Origin: a virus
Strand: one strand, 5' to 3'
Length of the DNA stretch: 26,018 nucleotides
Virus record (IMG/VR): IMGVR_UViG_3300020194_000727
Span: 1 to 26,018 of that record
Every line of letters starts with the position of its first letter. Position 1 is the first letter of the stretch. The notes under the pieces are model-generated. The model had not been told where the DNA came from and did not search any database. It saw nothing but the letters and a program-made list of their open reading frames with translations. Positions 8,415-25,928 of the stretch are shown piece after piece. A program made the position numbers and the translations under genes.

Positions 8415-9110
8415 ATGGCTAAAAAAGTTTATGAAACAGATTCTGTAGTTTTTATTGATGGAACTTTGGTTAATCTGGGTCCTTTAAAAATTAAGTTCAT
8501 GAGAGAGTTTATGGACATATTTCAACTTATTAAATTTACTGCAAATGATGAGCAGTCTATAGCTGTTTTGTCAGAATGTGCTACTGTTTGTATGAAGCAG
8601 TATTATCCAATAGTTGCTAGCAAAGAAGATCTAGAAGAGCTTGTTGATTTGCCTACAGTGTATAAGATTTTAGAAATATGTGCTGGCATTAAAATTAATC
8701 CTGATGAAGACGATGTAGACAAACAAGCTAAGGACCAGAGTGACAAGAATACGTGGGAAAATCTAGACCTAGCCTCTCTGGAAGCAGAAGCTTTTATTAT
8801 TGGTGCTTGGAAAAATTTTGAAGATCTTGAACTTTCTATGACAATGGCAGAACTTATTGCTGTTATTGAAAAAATAAGAGATTTAGACTACAATGAAAAG
8901 AAATTCCTCGCAGCTATGCAAGGCGTGGATCTTGATGAACAATCTGGCAAAAACAATGCTTGGGAAGAAATGAAAGCCAGAGTATTCAGCGGTGGAGCAA
9001 CAGATAATCCAAACGACATTACAGCACTACGAGGACTTAACGCTCAAAAGGCTGGGTTTGGTATTGGTATGGGTCTTTCATACGAAAAAATTGAACGTAA
9101 AAAAGACTAG
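8415..9110 (+). CDS. Tail assembly chaperone, long form (G+T-like domains in one frame)
   Basis: This encodes 231 residues. Residues about 9-95 form a G-like domain (IDGTLVNLGPLKIKFM, SECATVCMKQYYP, DLPTVYKILEICAG) that is paralogous to the whole of the next gene. From about 112 onward there is a second, T-like domain (LASLEAEAFIIGAWKNFEDL, RDLDYNEKKFLAAMQGVDLD, NAWEEMKARVFSGGATDN). It ends with a Gly-rich segment containing KAGFGIGMGLSYEKI. In lambda-type phages the G-T protein is made by ribosomal frameshifting; here both domains are read in one frame with no stop between. The chaperones bind the tape measure and recruit tube subunits, and are absent from the virion. Translation appears leaderless. 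The place directly before the tape measure supports the call. Confidence 0.82.
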   Translation: MAKKVYETDSVVFIDGTLVNLGPLKIKFMREFMDIFQLIKFTANDEQSIAVLSECATVCMKQYYPIVASKEDLEELVDLPTVYKILEICAGIKINPDEDDVDKQAKDQSDKNTWENLDLASLEAEAFIIGAWKNFEDLELSMTMAELIAVIEKIRDLDYNEKKFLAAMQGVDLDEQSGKNNAWEEMKARVFSGGATDNPNDITALRGLNAQKAGFGIGMGLSYEKIERKKD

Positions 9111-9154: not shown

Positions 9155-9466
9155 ATGGCAACAAACATAAACGAAGAAAAAGAAATTACACTTATCGATG
9201 GGACAAAATTTAACATTAGACCACTAAAGATTTCTCTACTAAAACTATTTATGAAAAAATTTGAAGAAGTACAAGAAGTCTCATCGGATAACGAAAAATC
9301 TATGACAATTTTAATTGAATGTGTTCAGATTGCTATGAGGCAGTATAAGCCAGAACTAGCTGATGATGCAGAAAAGCTAGAAGACCTTCTTGATCTACCA
9401 ACAGTATACAAGATTGTCGAAGAGGCATCTGGGGTGAGACTGACAGATTCTCTTATTCAACAATAA
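9155..9466 (+). CDS. Tail assembly chaperone, short form (G-like domain only)
   Basis: This encodes 103 residues after SD AAGGAG. It aligns with residues about 9-95 of the previous gene: IDGT, PLKI, an EC pair, M-x-QY, and an identical DLPTVYKI near the end. By eye about 35 of 87 aligned positions are identical. It ends soon after (VRLTDSLIQQ) and has no T-like domain. The tape measure starts 14 bases after its stop, so there is no room for a frameshift extension, and I see no slippery heptamer near its 3' end. It looks like the stand-alone partner of the long form, performing the role that lambda gpG has relative to gpGT. It is led by its own promoter and an SD, unlike the leaderless long form. 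Confidence 0.8.
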   Translation: MATNINEEKEITLIDGTKFNIRPLKISLLKLFMKKFEEVQEVSSDNEKSMTILIECVQIAMRQYKPELADDAEKLEDLLDLPTVYKIVEEASGVRLTDSLIQQ

Positions 9467-15400: not shown

Positions 15401-17763
15401 GGTCACAAGCTTACGAGATGGCTGCAGATGCAGGACTTGCCGCTGCTATTGTTGCGGAGCAAAATCTCAATAATATTCGTGAACTCGTAAATCTTGTTAG
15501 GCAAACAGAGAGAATGACTGCAGATCAGGCTGCAGCTTCGGCAGTAGCTACAGCTAATTCTGCAACAGCTAATCTTCGTAAAGTGCAAGAATTTATTGCC
15601 AAGAATTCTTCAGCATTGACAGATCGTCAAAAAGAAGCAATTCTGAACGATGAAGATCTTCAAAGACTTGTTCTGAATCCATCAATCAATCCTGAAGTTT
15701 TGAGACAAGCTCTTAGAGATGCAGAAAATGCTGCACAGCTTGATCTCGAAATCAAGAAAATGACTTTCACTGGTTTGCAGGAAATCTTCACAGATGGCTT
15801 TGGCAAGGCGATGGAAGCTTTCGCTGCCAAAGAGCAGCAAATTGATATTGATTTCCAATTTTCGACTGCCTCTGACCAGGCTATTATTCAGGCAGCAGAA
15901 AGGCAGATATCAGACATTAGATATCTCGTTGATGATCTTGAGGCAGATCTTACTCGCATTAGATATCAAGAAGATGAAATCAATAAGAGGTATAAGGATA
16001 GGCTGGATGCTCTTAATGAGGTTGCCGATATTAATGAGAAGCTTTCTGCACAGCAAGAGGCACAGCTAACCGTAGCCGATGCTCTGTCCCGTGGTGATAT
16101 TTCTGCTGCCGCAAGAGCAGCTCAAGAATATAGGCAACAACTTGCACAAGATAATGCTACTCAGCAAAGAGATGACCTTACACGTCAAAAAGATATTGAG
16201 CTTGCAGCTGTGCGTGGACAGATGGGTATGTCTAGGTCACAAATTGAGGCACAGATCCTTGAATATCAGAAGCAAATCCTTGAAATTGAAGAGTCTCAGC
16301 TTGAGCCAGCACAGCAAAGAGTTACCCTTGCCGAAAGACTTAAGATGGATGCCATCGCTAGCCTTGAGATTCTTGGTAAGACAAGGCTTGAGTGGGAGGC
16401 TGTTAAGAACAGGGTAGACTTAGCAGTAACCAGCAGCGAAGATTATATTAACGCTATGAGGGAAGCTCTTGGTGTAGTTCAGGATATTGTTACATATTGG
16501 GATAGTATTGATAATCAGTCTAATAAAGATTTGTTTGTCAACGTAAGAATGAACACTCAAGAGTTTGATAACCTTCCGATACCTCTTGCTGATGGGGCAC
16601 AGCCTCTCTCCGATTCAAGCGGCAGCGGCAGTGCAACACCAGAGCCAGAGCCAGTGGTGACTCCACCAGCTTCTGCCGTAAATGTTAGCACATCAAGAGA
16701 TTCTGTTTCTATTTCTAGCAGTTTGCAGGAAGAAGAGGGAGCGATCGAGGGATGGTTTAATAACCTTACAAACCAAGGATGGTTTAAGAGTCTTCAGGCT
16801 ATCGGAATTGTCTTTGGACAAAAGGTACAAGAAGGATTTACAAATATCGGTGAGACTATAGATCAAAATATCATTCAGCCAATAAAAGATAAGTGGAATG
16901 AATTTGCAACTTGGGTTGATACAAATGTGATTCAGCCAATTAAAAATGCTTGGAACTGGGGGGTAGATTGGGTAAATACTACTATCGTTCAACCAATTCA
17001 AAACGGCTGGAATACTCTAACATCTTGGGTTGATACAAACATTATTCAACCGATAAAAGATAAGTGGAACTGGGGTGTGGACTGGGCTTACACTACTATT
17101 GTTCAGCCAATCGAAGAGACACTAACTACCTTCTTTGCTTGGTTTACTGAAGACGATACTCTTGAAAATAAAATATCTGACGTAGAAACATTTTGGGATA
17201 CTTCCGTTACCTATGTAACAGAAGATTTGTTTCCAAAGATTGTAACCTGGTTTGAAGAACTTCCAGAAAAATTAAGCTCTGTGTTTGAAAAGGTTGGGGA
17301 TGGCATAGCTAATAGTGTTAAGATTGGAATAAATAAAGCCATTGACTTTATTAATAAGTTTAAGATTACAATACCAGAAAAAATCCTTGGATTCACTGTT
17401 CCTGGTGGAGGCAAGAGCTTTGGGTTTAACATCCCTAGAATACAGCTAAATTCTGGAGGCGTTGTCCCTGGAATTGGTAATACCGACACCGTTCCAGCAA
17501 TGCTAACGCCTGGAGAGTTTGTTGTTAGAAAATTTGCCGTGAGTAGGTTTGGGCTAGAGAATTTGAAAGCAATTAACAGTGGTAACTACAGCAGTCTTTC
17601 TGCCTCAAAGTCATCGCAGTCAGCAGCAGGAAGCAATTCAGTGTATAATTATAGTTTGAACCTAAATGTTAAGTCAGATTCTAACCCAGAAGATATAGCT
17701 AGGGTCGTAATGTCTGGAATCAGGCAGGTTGAAAACCGTAGAATTAGAGGGAACACACTATAA
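9481..17763 (+). CDS. Tail tape measure protein
   Basis: This encodes 2760 residues, starting nine bases after AGGGAG. The N-terminal 200 residues are Ala/Gln-rich and helical. Residues about 213-470 carry the TP901-type tape-measure core (FKRVYGELFTSQKETDQMYK, MKMAADAAAMGKTG, AFLLTAMKEGGINASEGANA). Hydrophobic segments lie at about 542-576 and 1161-1224, with a Gly-zipper stretch at about 1400-1460 (GAKIGAAVGTAITPGIGTAI). A Lys/Arg/Ala-rich region spans about 1040-1143, a long coiled coil about 2137-2287, and a Pro-rich linker lies near 2385. Five 19-residue repeats fill 2463-2557. The motif GDVVPAMLSPGE near 688 recurs as TDTVPAMLTPGE near 2667. The protein sets tail length, and hydrophobic parts may enter the host membrane during DNA ejection. 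The frame is intact. Confidence 0.95.
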   Translation: MADAQAHLSVNLDTSKALASIRALQAEISKFHQTQSALNAQAASQAAGMQRNLINSINATGQFSAQMTTVASTTSAFTRALETNKLSLGQYFKYGVASTKTFGRVFRSEFDTINRVARERVKTLQTQYIKMGRDANGAMRAIAVRPLALDMENLATRTAIAAQRQALFNQLLRQGSTSLLNWGKNTQWAGRQLMVGFTLPLTLFGSVAARTFMDLEEQAIRFKRVYGELFTSQKETDQMYKDLQGLGSEFTKYGVALKDTMKMAADAAAMGKTGADLMAQVRQAATLAVLGGVEQDKALETTISLTNAFGVATEELANKIDFLNAVENQTVVSIEDLTTAIPKAGPVVKQLGGDVEDLAFLLTAMKEGGINASEGANALKSGLARIINPTDRASEMLAGLGININGIVEGNAGDVKGTIVELATALDTLDPLNKARAIEELFGKFQFARISTLMQNVIGEGTQAQRVLQLTQASTEELAILTERELKRVEDSPLYKFKQAFEDLKISLIPIGEAFLKAVTPIIEFGARLLDKFDAMNDGAKSFVVALVAGLGVIAPTLLMTVGLVGNGVANLIKFFSWMSQIGKSSANMTELGMSTQYMTQEQLEANAVASSLNQTHTTLRQTFTSEAAAVNALTLSYNKAIAAQRALLASGGGAKVARGAKPAGMATGGIVKKYAKGVTMVPGPKGAGDVVPAMLSPGEAVIPVEETKRYFPLIQAMIAGAIPGFANGFDGDYTKLAQHLAGRKTNITAIRDYLVTSGLSKDFLNQLANSKAGSVTTKADLQKLTTSFMKSSGSMDFSHTRSATRISLSDASKFSGAAGARAQEMIKAGGTTETTNPRIYSSWGFMGDRDLNKASGSLGGANLSAYAAATKNVTPEQMWGRAFQAGGADIFGKDSPAMKAFGKAFQGEMDKAAKTFEKVFDTDARLNKALERNPALKATSLEDIERKAMQRLPAQYKAQVAGVQAKALQTPAPGATAVKFNPTAELRQQLAKLFPKESKYVRQGGSGKLVTGGMALGVNKSDRTLFGKLIAKDLNVREEAIAAQEEDTKVVRKGTEQKKDTGKKAVKASKASAKAAQTRVVDGREQVFRGGKWVDKVRSNAAQRANQERAARTQEADQKREARNARRRELYAQRKAAQQVPAPDAAEQRRAPGMGGGGRMGIGMAVSSAAIAASMAPGKVGEVGQSLIMPAIVASSLLMLPPKIMVVVGALSLAGFSIYKMVDAFKSASKEAMTLAEELGVGSKSMDRLSEFAGNVTASQIMNKRRAEGFAPYQIQPGKQTFGSAFLGSEAGTELKDSISKALESQDLQAVQQQIVNQMTTAIATGALNAAQARSIVYELGKELGDYSFAINVNGKLTQLIGPNGENLLNDPLGVRLEIMQESVDAVESSFEAIDASGVGARLGTKIGLGAAATVAGVWGGAAIGAKIGAAVGTAITPGIGTAIGVLAGAALGVGVTAAISVADFEKIGNLSGAAIANSVMLVQQRQDILDSLDIEYEKRIAAATAAGDTAEADRLTNQYLEERQQFLEQTGQAISDVASQIANAPSFLGLFGEKPAMLDALNDAIKMAYEDNPLAQMMAMGVQEQIKDIDFGATEREVTLSLLLASKDIDPAALSGFLATFGGDTATIDTFIDITTNLGGAEGGRVLQVMNLFEDDVNKTQFLADVKARGANAAGFLDAFQQIAQTAAGGQVDLQASLDFYLNNPELLQDYEQDMQRLRAQAAAGPISQDFIINYIGENVADIIATDQAYFDSLDPVQQVTYIQTVRTIYETYGENFRETPAFVSWRRSQPSSVPDEGFFTQSANQLTQAPALAPGGAEELAPEPQGGGSKDQSSILDDVLKKLRDYRDLQVGILKGWKNISTKLEELFGGDAGISGFRGLSQQMRDIGLGENFIEMIVGMSPEDYEKYKDSLFVFDDKGNLAGITTEARALAKALDAITLGEFQNEQESTLISMQKQVAAARKLVSAGLDWSQAYEMAADAGLAAAIVAEQNLNNIRELVNLVRQTERMTADQAAASAVATANSATANLRKVQEFIAKNSSALTDRQKEAILNDEDLQRLVLNPSINPEVLRQALRDAENAAQLDLEIKKMTFTGLQEIFTDGFGKAMEAFAAKEQQIDIDFQFSTASDQAIIQAAERQISDIRYLVDDLEADLTRIRYQEDEINKRYKDRLDALNEVADINEKLSAQQEAQLTVADALSRGDISAAARAAQEYRQQLAQDNATQQRDDLTRQKDIELAAVRGQMGMSRSQIEAQILEYQKQILEIEESQLEPAQQRVTLAERLKMDAIASLEILGKTRLEWEAVKNRVDLAVTSSEDYINAMREALGVVQDIVTYWDSIDNQSNKDLFVNVRMNTQEFDNLPIPLADGAQPLSDSSGSGSATPEPEPVVTPPASAVNVSTSRDSVSISSSLQEEEGAIEGWFNNLTNQGWFKSLQAIGIVFGQKVQEGFTNIGETIDQNIIQPIKDKWNEFATWVDTNVIQPIKNAWNWGVDWVNTTIVQPIQNGWNTLTSWVDTNIIQPIKDKWNWGVDWAYTTIVQPIEETLTTFFAWFTEDDTLENKISDVETFWDTSVTYVTEDLFPKIVTWFEELPEKLSSVFEKVGDGIANSVKIGINKAIDFINKFKITIPEKILGFTVPGGGKSFGFNIPRIQLNSGGVVPGIGNTDTVPAMLTPGEFVVRKFAVSRFGLENLKAINSGNYSSLSASKSSQSAAGSNSVYNYSLNLNVKSDSNPEDIARVVMSGIRQVENRRIRGNTL
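16867..17151 (+). repeat. Five tandem 19-residue repeats in the tape measure
   Basis: Five back-to-back 57-base units encode a pattern close to (N/T)-(I/V)-(I/V)-QPI-x3-WN-x4-W-x2-T. QPI is present in all five. Copies 1 and 3 share the WVDT ending and copies 2 and 4 share NWGVDW, suggesting a 38-residue double unit. The fifth copy has lost the central WN but keeps QPI and the later Trp. Trp-bearing periodic repeats are known in tape measures; this length and QPI-WN signature are noteworthy. Confidence 0.85.
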
Positions 17764-18500: not shown

Positions 18501-21500
18501 ATGTTTGTTAATCAAAAACTACAAGAACACCTCGAAACCTCTTCTAGTATTAGCAGCCAAGCAATGGTTGTTGCCGAATGGAACATGAATATTGCTGACA
18601 ATATTTCTACCATCGGAAACTATAGATACAGGCCAACAGCTGACATTGCCTCCTCAGAGGGCGTGTACGCCTCTGTGGCTGGCTCTTTTGATATTAACGA
18701 TGAGAACAATGCCGTCAAATTCTATACTGGTGCAACATATGCAGATGTTGTTGTTGACGGCGGTTTGGATAATGCTAACGATCCAGTAGCCTTTACAACA
18801 CCAAACGAAAAAGAAAGACTGCTTTATTCTTTAGAAGATTGCTTTAGAAGATTCAGGCCAAGATCTGGTATCAATAAGCTTAGATATTTTGAAGATAACT
18901 ACACCCACTTTGTTAATCAAAATCTTGCAACAAGGCCAAGATATTATATGGCAAGCAGAAATGATCCTTTTAAATACTGGACTTCTTATCGTAAAGAGAG
19001 TGGAGTAGAGAGAGGTCTTGCTAACAAAATACTAGGTGATCAATATGCAATTGATGATGCTGCACCTTTTGTAGTTTACAAAGACAACATTCCAGCTAAC
19101 AGGATTGTTGTCAAGATGCAAACTAATGTCGGTAGCGTTGACCTAGGGCCATTCTACGAAAACGGGACTTCTTTCGAAGACCCATTCTATGGTGAAGCTA
19201 ATAAGACTACGCCAACAAACTGGAGTATTCAGGTCCTAAAGGGAGATAACTGGGTTGATGTTGCAGTCTTTAATCCCCTGTCTGTAAGAAGAAACAACTC
19301 TCCAGTTATTGGAGACGATGGATATGTAGAGCTTGCTTACGGCATTATTCTACCAGAGCAATATCTCGACACCATTCACTTTGTTGGCTCGTATCCTTTT
19401 GCAAGTCTTCTGCCATCCAACCCAGCAATCAATTCAGCATTTTTCGTAAGAGAAACTCAAAATGAACAAGGCATGGTCTACGTTTGGAATGGCAGTTCCT
19501 ATGACTCTTTTGTTCCACAGTATGGTTGGTATCTTGCTGATGAAGATATAACTGAGCGTACAGCAATGGTTACTGAATTTGTTGACCCAGCATATTTTAA
19601 CGACGGCAATGAAATAAAGTATAAAGAGTTTGAGTATATCCGTGGTATTCGTGTAGTTGTAAAAACAATGAATAAAATCAAATCTACTTTTGATTTGATT
19701 GAGCTTTCTCCACGTCTTGTTGCAAACATAACCGATAGAACAAGAGCTTTCGATCTCAACAAGAGCGCATCAGATCTTGGTGTGAGTGGTATGCCAGTAG
19801 GTCAGCTTCTTGCCTCTAACGGTACGCTAGAGATATTTGATTTTGACGATTCGTTTAATCAAAACAATACCAGTAGCGTCTTGTCATCTTTTGTTTCCAA
19901 TAACTTACAGATTAAACTTTTTGAGAATATTAGCATCATCGACAATGATGCTGTTGAAACATTTTCTGTTCCACTTAAAATATTGTATGCTGATGGTTTC
20001 CCACAGACAGACTCTAAGGGTAGAAGCGTAAAGCTAGGTTTAAGAGATCTATTCTTTTACTTTGAAACACTGAATGCCCCACAGCTATTGGTCGAAGGAG
20101 CTTCTCTTAGCTATGCCGTATCGTTTTTGTTAGACTCTATCGGCTTCTCAAACTATGTGTTTAGAAGGGTAGAGGGTGAAGACGATCCAATAATTCCTTA
20201 CTTCTTCGTAAAGCCAGAAACTACAATTGCTCAGGTTCTACAGGAGTTAGCCGTAGCTACACAGTCAGCAATGTTCTTTGACGAATTCAATAACTTTGTT
20301 GTTATGAGCAAAAACTATATTATGCCATCAGCAGAAGAGAGGGCTACTGACACCCAAATCCTTGGCTCGTCTGATCAAACAAAAGATGGCGTAAACGAAA
20401 ACAGAACTACTGGGCAAAGCCTTTCAAATATTATTGAGCTTACTTCTGCCAATCAGGAAGTCTTCAATGATGGAAAGATTCTTTATGAAGAAAAGTATAT
20501 TCAAAAAGATTACGGCTCTCTAAGACAGGCAAACTTTGTGAATCAAGATAAAAACTGGGTTTATAAGCCAGTCCTCCTCTGGGAAGTAACAGGAACTCCG
20601 CCTATTAGGTCTGCCAATGAGTCTCAGGATCAGTCGTCTTCTTATGCTTTAGCAGCAGTCCCACTAAACTCAGACCTATTGGACGAAGAGCCATGGGTCA
20701 AGAAAAACCAACTTATTAACAACATAATTGATTTTGGCGAGGGTGCATATTGGGTAGCCAGATACAATGGATACTTCTACGCCAATGGTGAAATTATTAA
20801 ATATGACGCAATAGAATATAGCGTATCTGGCATTGGCAATGTGTGGATTAGTAGCTTGCGAGAATACCAAAACTATTATTCTAAGGTTGAGTATGGTGGA
20901 AGACTATATCCAACTGGCCGTGTACGAATTTATTCAGAACCATTCTATGAGGAGATCGATGGAATTGTTGTTTTGAAAAATGGTGCTGTTCGTAAACATG
21001 GTAGAGCACAGTTCGGAACCTCGATAGCTTACCACAGTGCTGGTCTTCCACAATACTGGTCAGACACTACTGACAATGCCCCAGTCCAGGGTATAGAAAT
21101 GGACTCTAGGTATCTATTCTCAACATTCGCCAATAAGAGACTTCTCGGTGCATATAACCAAGAGGCAATATCTATTGATGTTTCTGCAGAAATAGATGAG
21201 CCAAACAATATTTTTGGTATTGCCTATGCTGACGGTAAATGGGTTGGTGTCGGAGATGATGGTAATTTTAGAATTTCTACTAATGGGGAAGACTGGACAA
21301 TCTTTATTGATGATGGTGTTGCACTTATTGATGAAGATATTAGGCTAAAAGCAGTTGCCTATGGAACTGGGCCAGAGTCTAACTCTGTCTGGCTGGCTGT
21401 TGGTAGCAAGGGGACTGGAGACAGCAAAGAAGCATTAATGCTTTATTCTGAGGACGCTACCGAGTGGACAGAAATTACAGATCATGGCATTGAGTCAACA

Positions 21501-24500
21501 TCTCTTAATGATGTTCAGTTTAACAATAACTTGTGGGCTGTAGCTGGTAATGAGGCAGCCTTTGCAACTTCAACAGACACATCATCCTGGAGCGTTAAAA
21601 CATTAACTCTCGATGTTAAAGTTTCTAGTGGTGCAAACAAGAAAAAGATTTCAAGAACCTACAGACAAACTGGTATTTCTATATCTAAAATTTATAAGAA
21701 AAATAAAAACGAGGATTCTAGCGAGGCTGTTATCGTTAGAAAAAATCATGGCCTTAAAAATAATGAAAAGATTAAGTTTTCCACAACTGGAACTCTGCCA
21801 GCTGGATTATATACAAGTGCTGAAAGAGCTAATCCTTACTATGTAAAGATAAGAAACAAAGATAGCTTTTTTGTTAAAAACAATATAGGAGATGAAACTG
21901 GTGCACTAATTGACTCAAACGGTAGTGGAAGGCATAGCTATTCTAGAGAAGCTGCAACCTTTACAGTTAATAAACACAACTTCTCCAATAACAACTCAAT
22001 CAGAGTAATAGAGTCTGGAACGCTACCATCTGTATTGTCTGAAGATACTGCATATTACGTTCGTGTTATAGATAAGAATAATATATCTCTATCAACATCT
22101 AAAAATGGCGACTTGATTGACTTTGTTTCTGCACAATCTTCAAGCTCACACACAATAGAAGAATACGTCAAAAACAATATTAATACCATCGGATATGGAA
22201 ACGGGACTTGGGCTGTAGCTGGCAAGCAGGGGGTGTTTGCAACTTCAACAGACACAAATTCTTGGACAGCTAGGAATATTGGATTCTCTGGTGCTAAAGC
22301 TTACAAGATTGCCTATGGGCAAAACACGTGGGTTGTAGTTGGAGCATCTAAAAAATCTGTTAAATCAACAAATTTAACAAAATGGACTAGGTTTGATACT
22401 AAAATATCAAAAACTCTCAGAACTATCGGCTTCGGCAACGGGGTATGGATTGCAGCTGGTAGCAATGGGACAATGTCTAGGTCAACAAACCTTTCTAAAT
22501 GGAAAACAGTGAAGGCAAAACAACGCAAAGCAAACATTAATGATGTTGCTTGGAATGGATCTTATTGGATTGCAATTGGAAACAAGCTTAATATTTCTAA
22601 ATCTCAAGATGGTTCTTCATGGAACAGCAGGGCACAAAATAATGTGGGAGAGATTGTTTTTGAAAGTATTGTCCCTCACAATTTAGTTCCATTTGATAGG
22701 GTTATTCTTAATAGTACGGGAACAATATCTGAAGAAACTTTGACAGATGTCTCTATAAGTATTGCAAATCCAGCAAATTTTACTGCAGAAAATCACAAGT
22801 TAGCCAATAATGATCAGGTGGCTTTAAGAACTACTGGCTCATTACCAGAAGCTTTTGACGAAGATACAACATATTATGTAATCAGGATAGACAAAAATAC
22901 GTTTAGGTTGGCATCTGAGCCAAACGGTTCGGCAATATCTACAGCAGGAAACTCTCAAAGTGGCGATCACTCATTCTATTTCCCGCCAGTCTCCCTTGGC
23001 GAGCCATACTGGGTTAGCCCTAAAAATATTACAAGCAATACCTTTACAATCTCTAGCTCTAGGGACAACGCTAGGCTCGGCATTACAGTTAAAGGCAAGG
23101 GTGCAGAAAGTGGCGAGCATAACGTTACTCTCGACACCAACCTTGAATCCCGCTTAGTGACATCGTTAGGCTCGGAAACGGATAAGCTTAAGGTTACAGC
23201 AAGCAGTGCTATCTATGAGCCAGGGGATAGAATATATTTCGCAATGATGGAAAACCTTGGCGGGGGCCAATATTTGCCATTAGAGTTGAATAATCCAGCT
23301 AACTTAACAAGATATGCAGCATTCTACGTTCATTCTGTTGTTGGCGATGAGGGTAGGTCATTCCTAATTTCGGAATCTTTGGGTGGCGATGCAATTGATA
23401 GTCCAGGAGACGTAGACCTGTCAGAATATTTATCAGGCATACAAGAAGAAAACAATCTAGACTTTACTCCAGAGTTTAGAATTATGCTAAACCGAACCGA
23501 AGAAATTTTAAACTCGACATTGCTTTCGCCAAATTCTGTAGAGTTTTCTGTCGGTAACCTTTTAGAAATTAGCTCTACAGCTGGAGAACTTGTTTCGCCA
23601 ACAAGGGTTTCTGCCATACGTTCTGCAGCACAAATTGTAAAAGAAGTAACTATCTCTATTGGTAATCCAGCAATAGTTACATGTAACGACCATGGGCTAT
23701 TTGATCAAGATACTATTAGTTTTACTACTAATGGAACACTGCCATATGGAATTGAAACAAATATCAACTATTTTGTTGAAAGAATAGATAGTAATAACTT
23801 TAATTTGCTTACCTATAGCGAGTCTGATGAATCTTTTGTTTATGTAGAAACAAAGTCCTCAGACGAAGAGAATCCAGATGCTGAGATTGATTTGGATGAG
23901 CTAGACGCTGCCGAGGCAATAGAAGACGATGATGAGCGAGAGGCAGCATTTGCTGCAATCTATAACTATAGAGCACAAAACGGAAAACACTCCTTCGTAA
24001 AGTCTTTCAATGACAGCAACCAGGTTGTTATGAATAGAGAAGTCGCAGAAGTTGTCCCACAATATATTGTTACACAAGAAGAGGTTTTAATTGATGAAGA
24101 GGATGGGGAAACAGAAATTCAAACAACTTATGAAAACGTTTCTGCCAAAAACATTATCACTGCAATTCAAGAGCTAGAGGTAACTTCTGGAGAAAAGGCT
24201 GGATTCAGCGATGCGAATAAGTCACTTGCAAGAGCTGCTTCACGTAATGGTATCATAAAAAACTATTTTGCTAATTCTTCGTTTAGCGAAACTGATGTAA
24301 ATAAGTTCTTGGCAACACAAACTGGAACTGTACAGTCTTCAGCATTAGTGTTTAACGGACCAGTTTTTGATGACCTTGACAAAGAGCCGATTGACTTTAT
24401 CTCGTATGCCCATAAGCCATTGACAGACAAATATTCTCATTTTGGAACAAGGATGCGAATTGTTGGAAAGCAAAGCAAAGAGCAGTATGAGCAAAATATT

Positions 24501-25928
24501 CTGAGGGCAATGGATTATTTTGTTACTCCAAGCAATCGTGAAGGACAGCCTAAGACAGTGTCTGGAGGATCTGGTGGACTCGGAATTATGGTTAACCCAG
24601 AAAACAACAATGGATATTTCTTTGAAATAATTGCTTTGCCAAAAACAAATCCAGATTCTTATTCTGCCACAAGCGATGACCCAAGATTCCAGCAACTAGA
24701 AGAAGAGGGCCTTTTCAACGTTGTATTTTATAAGGTTGTTAGAAAAGTTCCTAATGAAGCTGAGGCAGCTGTAGAAGATTCTTCACAGGCCATACCAGTA
24801 AAGCTTTGGCAGGGAGTTACAAGCATTATTGCTGATGACGGATTGTTTATTGGTCAATCTCGAACGGTAAACGACAAAACGCCAAGCGTTTACGACATGT
24901 CTGTAGAGTATGAAGATATTGACGAAAACACTAGACGTTTTTACCTGATGATTAACAGCATAGTTATTGGAATTGTTGATGATACAGAGCCTCTGCCAAT
25001 TTATAACAATATGGCACTGTTTGTTCGTGGAACTACCAGGGCAATGTTTGAAAACATTTACGCTATTGCTAATAACTTTACACAGAATACTATTTTTGAT
25101 ATAGAAGCTCCAGTCAATTCTGTGTTCGGCACAGAAAAAATTAATGTTTCTCAATCGTTTAGAAAGTATGCAGTTAGCGGTGCCGTCCAATCAACCTACC
25201 TGTCTGGTATTGGTGTAAACGATGTTCCTAAATACAATATGTACTTTGAAGAATTTGGAACAATTATGCGTGAATGTGCACACTTTAATGTCAAATATGA
25301 TAAAGCATACCCAGCACTATATGCTAAGATTGCAGATACTTTTAATAAGATGAAGGGCTATACAGTATCTGGATTTGTTCCTAGTGCCTACGGTGCGGAG
25401 TTCCTTGTATTTAATAATACAGATACAGCACTTAATCTTGACGAAACAACTGGAAACTATCTTAGAATTCAGGGTGTTAGCTTTACACAGAATGTGGCAA
25501 GAGATTTGACGGTAGACGATTACTTTAACTCTATTAGTGACTTTTCTGATCCAGACATTAAAGAAGATGGCACAATCATCTCTCCAATAAGACAGCAACA
25601 AAGATATCTAGATATTAAAAACAGCAGACTTACATACGGTAGAAAAGAGTTCGTAATAGAATCAGCGTATATTCAAAGTCAAGATGATGCAAATGACCTG
25701 ATGGCTTGGATGATAGATAAAACCATGAGGCCAAGGAAATCTGTTGGTATGATTCTATTCTCAATGCCAACAATACAGCTGGGGGATATTGTTACAATCG
25801 ACTATACTTCTACAGACAGTATTGAGCAGATATCTTTAGACGATACCCGCTTTGTAGTTTATAATATTGAATATCAAAGAAACGATCTTGGCCCAGTTAT
25901 GACTGTTTATTTAAGTGAGGTTTTGTGA
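18501..25928 (+). CDS. Giant tail-tip (hub-like) protein with beta-propeller and module insertions
   Basis: This encodes 2475 residues, starting directly after the previous stop. Residues 1 to about 640 look like a baseplate hub: GLRDLFFYFETLNAPQLLVE (about 512) and KPETTIAQVLQELAVATQSA (about 570) resemble gp27/Tal-type domains. Residues about 903-1380 hold seven Asp-box-like propeller blades, split by two unrelated beta modules. Further beta modules lie at about 1387-1830, one carrying an acidic insert. From about 1840 a conserved-style body resumes: a jelly-roll resembling LamG/concanavalin folds (about 1977-2190; YSHFGTRMRIVG, MALFVRGTTRAMFENIYAI) and a C-terminal hub-like domain (FVIESAYIQSQDDANDLMAW, TIQLGDIVTIDY). 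The hub would seed tail assembly. The propeller and jelly-roll could bind surface glycans, which is inference. Confidence 0.82.
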   Translation: MFVNQKLQEHLETSSSISSQAMVVAEWNMNIADNISTIGNYRYRPTADIASSEGVYASVAGSFDINDENNAVKFYTGATYADVVVDGGLDNANDPVAFTTPNEKERLLYSLEDCFRRFRPRSGINKLRYFEDNYTHFVNQNLATRPRYYMASRNDPFKYWTSYRKESGVERGLANKILGDQYAIDDAAPFVVYKDNIPANRIVVKMQTNVGSVDLGPFYENGTSFEDPFYGEANKTTPTNWSIQVLKGDNWVDVAVFNPLSVRRNNSPVIGDDGYVELAYGIILPEQYLDTIHFVGSYPFASLLPSNPAINSAFFVRETQNEQGMVYVWNGSSYDSFVPQYGWYLADEDITERTAMVTEFVDPAYFNDGNEIKYKEFEYIRGIRVVVKTMNKIKSTFDLIELSPRLVANITDRTRAFDLNKSASDLGVSGMPVGQLLASNGTLEIFDFDDSFNQNNTSSVLSSFVSNNLQIKLFENISIIDNDAVETFSVPLKILYADGFPQTDSKGRSVKLGLRDLFFYFETLNAPQLLVEGASLSYAVSFLLDSIGFSNYVFRRVEGEDDPIIPYFFVKPETTIAQVLQELAVATQSAMFFDEFNNFVVMSKNYIMPSAEERATDTQILGSSDQTKDGVNENRTTGQSLSNIIELTSANQEVFNDGKILYEEKYIQKDYGSLRQANFVNQDKNWVYKPVLLWEVTGTPPIRSANESQDQSSSYALAAVPLNSDLLDEEPWVKKNQLINNIIDFGEGAYWVARYNGYFYANGEIIKYDAIEYSVSGIGNVWISSLREYQNYYSKVEYGGRLYPTGRVRIYSEPFYEEIDGIVVLKNGAVRKHGRAQFGTSIAYHSAGLPQYWSDTTDNAPVQGIEMDSRYLFSTFANKRLLGAYNQEAISIDVSAEIDEPNNIFGIAYADGKWVGVGDDGNFRISTNGEDWTIFIDDGVALIDEDIRLKAVAYGTGPESNSVWLAVGSKGTGDSKEALMLYSEDATEWTEITDHGIESTSLNDVQFNNNLWAVAGNEAAFATSTDTSSWSVKTLTLDVKVSSGANKKKISRTYRQTGISISKIYKKNKNEDSSEAVIVRKNHGLKNNEKIKFSTTGTLPAGLYTSAERANPYYVKIRNKDSFFVKNNIGDETGALIDSNGSGRHSYSREAATFTVNKHNFSNNNSIRVIESGTLPSVLSEDTAYYVRVIDKNNISLSTSKNGDLIDFVSAQSSSSHTIEEYVKNNINTIGYGNGTWAVAGKQGVFATSTDTNSWTARNIGFSGAKAYKIAYGQNTWVVVGASKKSVKSTNLTKWTRFDTKISKTLRTIGFGNGVWIAAGSNGTMSRSTNLSKWKTVKAKQRKANINDVAWNGSYWIAIGNKLNISKSQDGSSWNSRAQNNVGEIVFESIVPHNLVPFDRVILNSTGTISEETLTDVSISIANPANFTAENHKLANNDQVALRTTGSLPEAFDEDTTYYVIRIDKNTFRLASEPNGSAISTAGNSQSGDHSFYFPPVSLGEPYWVSPKNITSNTFTISSSRDNARLGITVKGKGAESGEHNVTLDTNLESRLVTSLGSETDKLKVTASSAIYEPGDRIYFAMMENLGGGQYLPLELNNPANLTRYAAFYVHSVVGDEGRSFLISESLGGDAIDSPGDVDLSEYLSGIQEENNLDFTPEFRIMLNRTEEILNSTLLSPNSVEFSVGNLLEISSTAGELVSPTRVSAIRSAAQIVKEVTISIGNPAIVTCNDHGLFDQDTISFTTNGTLPYGIETNINYFVERIDSNNFNLLTYSESDESFVYVETKSSDEENPDAEIDLDELDAAEAIEDDDEREAAFAAIYNYRAQNGKHSFVKSFNDSNQVVMNREVAEVVPQYIVTQEEVLIDEEDGETEIQTTYENVSAKNIITAIQELEVTSGEKAGFSDANKSLARAASRNGIIKNYFANSSFSETDVNKFLATQTGTVQSSALVFNGPVFDDLDKEPIDFISYAHKPLTDKYSHFGTRMRIVGKQSKEQYEQNILRAMDYFVTPSNREGQPKTVSGGSGGLGIMVNPENNNGYFFEIIALPKTNPDSYSATSDDPRFQQLEEEGLFNVVFYKVVRKVPNEAEAAVEDSSQAIPVKLWQGVTSIIADDGLFIGQSRTVNDKTPSVYDMSVEYEDIDENTRRFYLMINSIVIGIVDDTEPLPIYNNMALFVRGTTRAMFENIYAIANNFTQNTIFDIEAPVNSVFGTEKINVSQSFRKYAVSGAVQSTYLSGIGVNDVPKYNMYFEEFGTIMRECAHFNVKYDKAYPALYAKIADTFNKMKGYTVSGFVPSAYGAEFLVFNNTDTALNLDETTGNYLRIQGVSFTQNVARDLTVDDYFNSISDFSDPDIKEDGTIISPIRQQQRYLDIKNSRLTYGRKEFVIESAYIQSQDDANDLMAWMIDKTMRPRKSVGMILFSMPTIQLGDIVTIDYTSTDSIEQISLDDTRFVVYNIEYQRNDLGPVMTVYLSEVL
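21561..21581 (+). repeat. Exact 21-base DNA repeat shared by blades 3 and 4
   Basis: The 21 bases starting TTTGCAACTTCAACAG here recur exactly at 22236-22256. A second shared stretch, TGGGCTGTAGCTGG, lies shortly upstream in both blades. The two blades flank the inserted modules. Confidence 0.85.
21723..22157 (+). repeat. Two beta modules inserted into the propeller
   Basis: Two copies of about 70 residues (21723-21941 and 21951-22157) share the order: (K)HxxxNN, a strand, S/T-x-GTLP, YYV, a (D/N)K(D/N) turn, and a closing (R/S)HS/T. They belong to the same unnamed module type as the copies at 22749 and 23646. Confidence 0.75.
22749..22980 (+). repeat. Beta module copy after the propeller
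   Basis: This is a well-preserved copy with ENHKLANNDQ, TTGSLPEAF, TTYYVIRIDKNTFRLA and a closing GDHSF. A degenerate partial copy precedes it at about 22650-22740 (PHNLVPFDRVILNSTGT). More diverged relatives may lie at about 22995-23130 and 23190-23400. Confidence 0.75.
23646..24000 (+). repeat. Beta module copy carrying an acidic insert
   Basis: The copy has SIGNPAIVTCNDHGLFDQD, TTNGTLPYGI, NYFVERIDSNNFNLL and the closing NGKHSF. Between the last strand and the closing motif lie about 45 residues dominated by Asp, Glu and Ala, which are absent from the other copies. Confidence 0.7.

Follow-up and report, generated by a model that had tools for sequence, protein, structure and literature searches.

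A six-stranded barrel module, repeated, set within a propeller and nested in its own kind in a large insert of a putative phage tail hub

What is the repeated beta module in a large gene of IMGVR_UViG_3300020194_000727, a linear virus record of 26018 bases (hereafter the window, the whole of the 26,018-nucleotide stretch analyzed), and how did it come to be there? The original prediction, made from the letters alone, placed an unnamed module with an HGL...TTGTLP...YYV...HSF signature in positions 21723-24000, which correspond to aa 1075-1834 of an ORF of 2475 aa (P0001). This ORF, a match to phrog_10359 (minor tail protein, E 4.2e-51, best stretch aa 374-613), lies 3' of the tape-measure gene with a 245-aa gene between them, the order of gp38-39-40 in Streptomyces phage Karp. 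From the PHROG name and the gene order, the protein is a putative tail hub. The genes 5' of it match PHROGs for a portal, a maturation protease, a major head protein, an Ig-domain protein and a tape measure, and thus belong to the structural region of a tailed phage. In a PDB profile search, the 10-member hub profile (A9) matched no relevant solved structure. A related contig (L065), whose hub end is 100% identical to the window over the last 276 residues, continues 3' of the hub with small genes and, from a reading of the translation, a helicase-like gene.

Two features 5' of the hub gene may be recorded here. Near the end of the tape-measure gene (16855-17111) is a 57-base tandem repeat in five copies, which encodes a WVDTNIIQPIKNxWNWG-like repeat. 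Adjacent genes 5' of the tape measure (8415-9110 and 9155-9466) both match phrog_10504, in the position where tail assembly chaperones usually lie.

Table 1. Features of the putative tail hub gene and its insert (positions in the window).
Feature	Position	Strand	Remarks
Putative tail hub gene	18501..25928	+	ORF, 2475 aa (P0001)
Insert	21120..24242	+	1041 aa, aa 874-1914; most relatives lack it
Blades 1-3	21177..21614	+	s-Asp-box S-x-[DN]-x-x-x-W at aa 926, 983, 1024
M1	21717..21944	+	barrel module after blade 3; leave-out profile 32.1 bits at aa 1073-1146
M2	21945..22160	+	barrel module directly 3' of M1, before blade 4; leave-out profile 42.4 bits at aa 1151-1216
Blades 4-7	22170..22643	+	s-Asp-boxes at aa 1249, 1289, 1328, 1368
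M3 first half (outer, split)	22644..22736	+	aa 1382-1412; joined halves 16.8 bits; L148 orthologue uninterrupted
M3i (inner, nested in M3)	22737..22982	+	leave-out profile 43.4 bits at aa 1424-1481; pLDDT 94.6; missing from L148 site
M3 second half (outer)	22983..23135	+	aa 1495-1545; joined halves; uninterrupted orthologue in L148
Doubtful degenerate module	23136..23420	+	about aa 1552-1640; weak scores
M6 body	23643..23831	+	leave-out profile 41.9 bits at aa 1724-1776
Acidic linker in M6 loop	23814..23960	+	49 aa: 20 D/E, 2 K/R; nested module there in L148
M6 closing strand (NGKHSF)	23961..24002	+	YRxQxGxHSFxKSFND conserved in window, L066, L148

At the level of sequence the repeated module is real, with four clear copies, one split copy and one doubtful copy in a single protein of 2475 aa. 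A leave-out profile of 29 module rows, built without the window and L066 sequences, scores the clear copies (M1, M2, M3i and M6) at 32.1 to 43.4 bits, against a best of 10.5 bits in 1000 shuffles of aa 1075-1840. The fifth copy is split, and its halves score as in Table 1 when joined in silico (best of 500 shuffles 6.1 bits, best of 500 random joins 5.4 bits) with a profile that had the clear window copies among its sources. The sixth, degenerate copy (-0.3 bits in the window, 8.9 in contig L066, 1.6 in contig L148) is doubtful as a true module. The four clear copies of the original prediction thus stand, but of the up to three degenerate ones that it allowed, one is the split copy, one is doubtful and a third was not found. 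The signature is present in a looser form than was proposed: the full Y[YF]V-x-R-I-D-x-N-[TN]-F occurs in two of the four clear copies, and the closing HSF reads HSY, HTI, HSF and HSF, the last behind the acidic linker of 49 residues. The sole Pfam match of the whole protein, SGS on that linker (E 0.0094), lies below the cut-off and was taken as an effect of composition.

The module is predicted to be a small six-stranded barrel of the type found in the FCCH domain of ubiquitin E1 and in phage endosialidases, and sequence profiles agree independently. The AlphaFold model of a single copy, M3i, is confident (pTM 0.83, six strands), and 30 of 999 chains match it at Z of at least 8. The best superposition is with the FCCH of UBA6 and UBA1 (Z 8.9; 72 of 82 residues of UBA6 at 2.2 A), a shared fold that indicates no function. 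VIA-align places the endosialidase barrels of phi92 (4hiz, Z 6.6) and K1F (1v0e, Z 6.4) on 70-71 residues at 2.6-2.7 A, values below 8 and so in the range where common arrangements also score. Foldseek lists an endosialidase first for the single module (probability 0.98), with an E of 0.14 that is its best and is weak. Among phage tail proteins, the outer domains of the FCWL1 (Z 7.3) and T1 (Z 7.1) proteins match the same model.

Sequence comparison leads to the same barrel. The Pfam family of the endosialidase barrel, PF12195, matches 14 of the 36 members of profile A3 at E of at most 1 (best 1.3e-4); the A3 profile finds the endosialidase 4hiz in the PDB, on the barrel, with E 9e-4 (1v0e, E 0.12); and on the K1F barrel (aa 438-496) the leave-out profile reaches 10.6 bits, whereas none of 1000 shuffles exceeds 5.4. 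Profile A1, made from the four window copies, gives weak matches in the PDB (best E 0.17; 4hiz E 0.35). With E limits of 10 for the entire window protein and 1 for the inner M3 copy, PF12195 gives no match, and its gathering cut-off of 35 bits is not reached, the L148 protein scoring 12.2 bits. Since the window copies fall below the Pfam cut-off, the module is a relative of PF12195 and not a member. The second family, PF16190 (E1_FCCH), matches two of the 36 A3 members at E of at most 1 (best E 0.017), the first-listed window copy not being one of them. The original prediction held that no named family could be attached; the module can instead be tied to the folds of both these families, and a profile match to an already well characterized domain has largely been found.

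The likeness might yet have arisen by convergence on a small barrel of a common kind, with the phage module as a separate family that does something else, and the missed Pfam cut-offs, the endosialidase Z values of chance arrangements and the sparse E1_FCCH matches would all fit that. This seems unlikely, because three routes that make no use of structure (the Pfam scan, the PDB profile search and the leave-out profile on K1F) arrive at the same barrel, and do so in register, with the letters HGL-x2-GD-x-V and IDK-x-NF of the module falling on those of the endosialidase barrel. These letters recur in proteins with different ligands, and are therefore probably residues of the fold and not of a binding site. 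In three solved settings (E1, T1 gp41 and the K1F endosialidase) the domain matched by the model lies within another domain as an insertion. The propeller blades of the K1F endosialidase surround its barrel. For E1, the FCCH is described as an inserted domain in an excerpt of PMC12355090.

All copies of the module lie in an insert of 1041 aa that the original prediction had missed. Related hubs on viral contigs align to window aa 1-875 and about 1900-2475, with little in between. Among the best 80 of 476 matches, which are close relatives and a non-random sample, 58 distinct hub ORFs span the insert site, and the site is short in 56 of them (49 measured at 23-38 aa, and seven, which escaped the measuring pattern, read as short by eye); the other two of the 58, one of them on contig L102, have 121 aa there. 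Karp gp40 (1062 aa), in the equivalent gene order, has no module (best score -1.5 bits). Inserts of comparable size are found in two contigs, L066 (992 aa) and L148 (974 aa). In all three pairs of viruses the insert is less conserved (44.7-48.9% identity) than the hub flanks (68.8-79.1%), as expected for a region that faces the host. The G+C content speaks little for a foreign-DNA origin of the nested copy: it is 39.0% for the inner module M3i, close to the 38.7% of the whole insert, the two outer M3 halves being at 34.3% and 47.7%.

At the same hub site, an ORF on contig L109 (3888-8465, + strand) carries a different insert of 121 residues (VEDISNITVGQIVTKISG..., approximately residues 873-994), which is also present in L102. 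The occurrence of this other insert in L109 and L102 suggests that the hub loop at the site is a general insertion hot spot.

The insert consists of a seven-bladed propeller, two barrels between its blades 3 and 4, and further barrels behind it. All seven blades have the motif S-x-[DN]-x-x-x-W, a shortened Asp-box according to an excerpt of PMC2716378; the pattern also fell on two sites outside the blades, both ending in F. A structural model of 660 residues covering propeller and modules (model 2) is weak overall (pLDDT 67.1, pTM 0.55) but better over most of the blades: in blades 1-3 most 10-residue blocks have pLDDT 74-91 and some 57-60, and the outer M3 is poorly modeled (10-residue blocks of about 33-60). 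It was made from a three-row alignment (A8), a 12-row alignment (A7) having been dropped for misplaced fragment ends. VIA-align superposes this model on seven-bladed propellers with Z 30.1, the 267 aligned residues lying within model residues 10-484, so that M1-M2 can be accommodated as an excursion; the seven-bladed ring closes across them. Foldseek lists endosialidase NF first for the same model (E 3.8e-9), and GH74 enzymes as well. A PDB profile search with the propeller-module region (A8) returned nothing useful. The modules had been described as clustering beside a propeller, and they do adjoin it, but copies 1 and 2 lie more exactly between blades 3 and 4, with the rest behind blade 7; the position of two modules inside the propeller, and of one module inside another, had gone unnoticed.

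On either side of M1-M2, a stretch of 58 bases is 81% identical in DNA between blades 3 and 4 (21534-21591 versus 22209-22266), and the corresponding blades of L066 are less alike by eye. Local homogenization is a possible source of this likeness.

By comparison of sequences, the M3i barrel sits inside the outer M3 barrel, and L148 is the natural un-nested counterpart. Between shared flanks the M3 site measures 164 aa in the window, 165 aa in L066 and 80 aa in L148, and in L148 the outer M3 runs uninterrupted at the standard module length (24.1 bits; 16.2 bits with the leave-out profile). The M6 site (123 aa in the window, 105 aa in L066, 172 aa in L148) has the opposite distribution: here it is L148 that bears an additional, complete module (54.2 bits; 44.3 bits leave-out) in the loop leading to the closing GxHSF strand, a place taken by an acidic linker in the window and L066. 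The outer M3 halves might instead be unrelated linkers in a plain tandem array of copies, in keeping with the low scores of the halves taken alone (5.0 and 10.0 bits), with the poor model of the outer M3, and with a scan of 213 modules in 67 ORFs that returned only the window case, barely above control (11.8 versus 11.0). That scan is an insensitive one, which missed the two other known cases, and L148 joins both halves in one standard module between identical flanks; unrelated linkers are accordingly very improbable, and a plain tandem array is contradicted by the continuous outer M3.

The same copy is 41-63% identical across viruses and different copies are 19-43% identical, so the copies predate the split of the three viruses. 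The nested copies T6i and W3i are no closer to their host modules than to other copies, which makes a recent local duplication an unlikely origin for them. The hub flanks of L066 share more identity with L148 (73.5% and 79.1%) than with the window (68.8% and 70.4%), so that M3i may either have been gained in one lineage or have been precisely lost or exchanged in L148.

The module is shared with structural proteins of other aquatic phages, as had been supposed: a profile scan located it at 62 viral loci, and the named phage records that match it include tail fibers, minor tail proteins and gp7 baseplate proteins. In one profile search the matches numbered 218 with the window's own; removal of these, and the requirement that a match span from position 5 or earlier to position 55 or later, left 77, which clustered to 32. 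With one copy as the query, tblastn matched 45 of 50,697 phage records at E of at most 1, of which 24 cover at least 80% of the query; minor tail proteins of Microbacterium phages, tail proteins of Rhizobium and Sinorhizobium phages and tail fibers of Leptospira phages are represented, with gp7 baseplate proteins of cyanophages as weaker matches. A comparison with predicted viral structures gave 15 matches at E of at most 0.001, some of them tail fibers. No relative came from scanning viral contigs with a single copy, and scans of the contigs with alignments A4, A6 and A5 confirmed one, three and two loci, all from the L066 and L148 contigs except a fragment, L067.

A gene of Actinomycetia phage DSL-LC01 (L152), labeled as a photosystem II assembly factor and situated among collagen-like genes, matches the window propeller.

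The insert is probably an appendage for host adhesion that took shape through recursive insertions of a plug-in barrel; here we infer the hub identity, the exposure, the ligand and the role in host range. The barrels and the seven-bladed propeller would form an appendage set into a single loop of the putative hub in an uncultured siphovirus, most likely projecting from the tail tip and making contact with the host envelope ahead of hub opening. Both the propeller and the barrels would provide contact surfaces, by analogy most likely for surface glycans, and the barrels would also set the reach; the insert as a whole may set the host range. The barrel would act as a plug-in domain, a compact unit that can be set between blades, in series, or inside the loop of another barrel, and to judge from the fold matches new barrels could be accepted in loops because the ends of the barrel are close together. 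Glycan binding by the modules is plausible from the precedent of the K1F endosialidase, which has polysialic-acid sites in propeller, barrel and stalk, and the loops of whose barrel are a hotspot of host discrimination (excerpt of PMC12632334). PF12195 is in use as a marker of receptor-binding proteins (excerpt of PMC9230537).

Somewhat short of an even chance is the broader reading that the barrel is a self-nesting adhesion cassette, with phages enlarging and varying their host-binding appendage at one hub hot spot as entire barrels are gained and lost in loops, those of the barrel itself among them. Near relatives with nested barrels at different places would follow from it, as seen in M3 of the window and L066 and in M6 of L148, and the other short insert of L102 and L109 at the hub site may be cited beside it.

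Two other accounts assign the parts differently. The barrels could be spacers only, setting reach and stiffness, with the propeller as the sole binding part. The outward domain of the T1 tail-tube protein (residues 16-94), inserted in a beta-sandwich (excerpt of PMC11945409), matches the M3i model as its FCWL1 counterpart does, the signature residues look structural, and no ligand is shown by this analysis, all of which suits a spacer. It remains rather unlikely that the barrels do nothing else, given the polysialic-acid site and host-discriminating loops of the related K1F barrel and the contact of the FCCH with ubiquitin (excerpt of PMC12355090). Alternatively, the insert could be an endosialidase-like enzyme that cuts capsule or envelope glycan, the barrels holding the chain for the propeller. 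A propeller with an inserted barrel is indeed the combination found in endosialidase, and the Foldseek results for model 2 name endosialidase NF and GH74 enzymes; yet the propeller has seven blades, against six in the K1F endosialidase (GH58; excerpt of PMC2716378), its closest superpositions are with non-enzymatic seven-bladed propellers, no catalytic residues were identified and Pfam found no glycosidase, and we regard an enzyme as improbable. An adhesion appendage is preferred to both.

Parts of this architecture resemble known systems. Like the PF12195 barrel of the K1F and phi92 tailspikes, the window module is a six-stranded barrel by model, shares the letters in register and is set inside a beta-propeller of a phage tail protein; unlike it, the module occurs in several copies, serial and nested, in a putative hub instead of a tailspike, with a seven-bladed propeller and scores below the Pfam cut-off. 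The FCCH of ubiquitin E1, which gives the best superposition and is likewise an inserted domain, differs in belonging to a cellular enzyme with a protein ligand, at 18% identity and with a weak sequence link. Type 2 Asp-box propellers are also interrupted by inserted domains (excerpt of PMC2716378), but the window propeller, with its s-Asp-boxes in every blade, lies within a tail hub and its inserts are FCCH-type barrels. In cyanobacterial RNA polymerase, domains are found inside domains to as many as six levels (excerpt of PMC13114784), and BEAN and HABAS are recurrent insertion domains (excerpt of PMC11515920); in contrast to polymerase-type nesting, the window has one small domain as both host and guest, the protein belongs to a phage tail, and near relatives differ visibly by gain or loss. 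The outer domain of T1 tail-tube gp41 is also inserted and of similar size, but occurs as a single copy on the tail tube and is called Ig-like by its authors (excerpt of PMC11945409).

That T1 domain (PDB 9l0f_G, residues 19-96) superposes on the FCCH-type model, and its Ig-like label may deserve a second look.

The barrel fold, propellers with inserted domains (excerpt of PMC2716378) and nested insertions (excerpt of PMC13114784) are thus already known. Searches of the open-access literature found no description of the module in phages or of a barrel nested in the same barrel, and as far as these searches show, what is new is a phage tail protein in which one barrel lies inside another of the same type, and for which nature also provides forms lacking the insert or the nesting.

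A fold can now be given to a module that recurs in the tail proteins of numerous aquatic phages and has for the most part stayed hypothetical, and tail proteins of cyanophages, actinophages, rhizobial phages and Leptospira phages are tied to a barrel whose role with glycans is known from endosialidase. The three hubs with the insert, set beside the relatives that lack it, constitute a natural experiment on how phages build their host-binding parts, and on whether a domain can be enlarged by insertion into itself.
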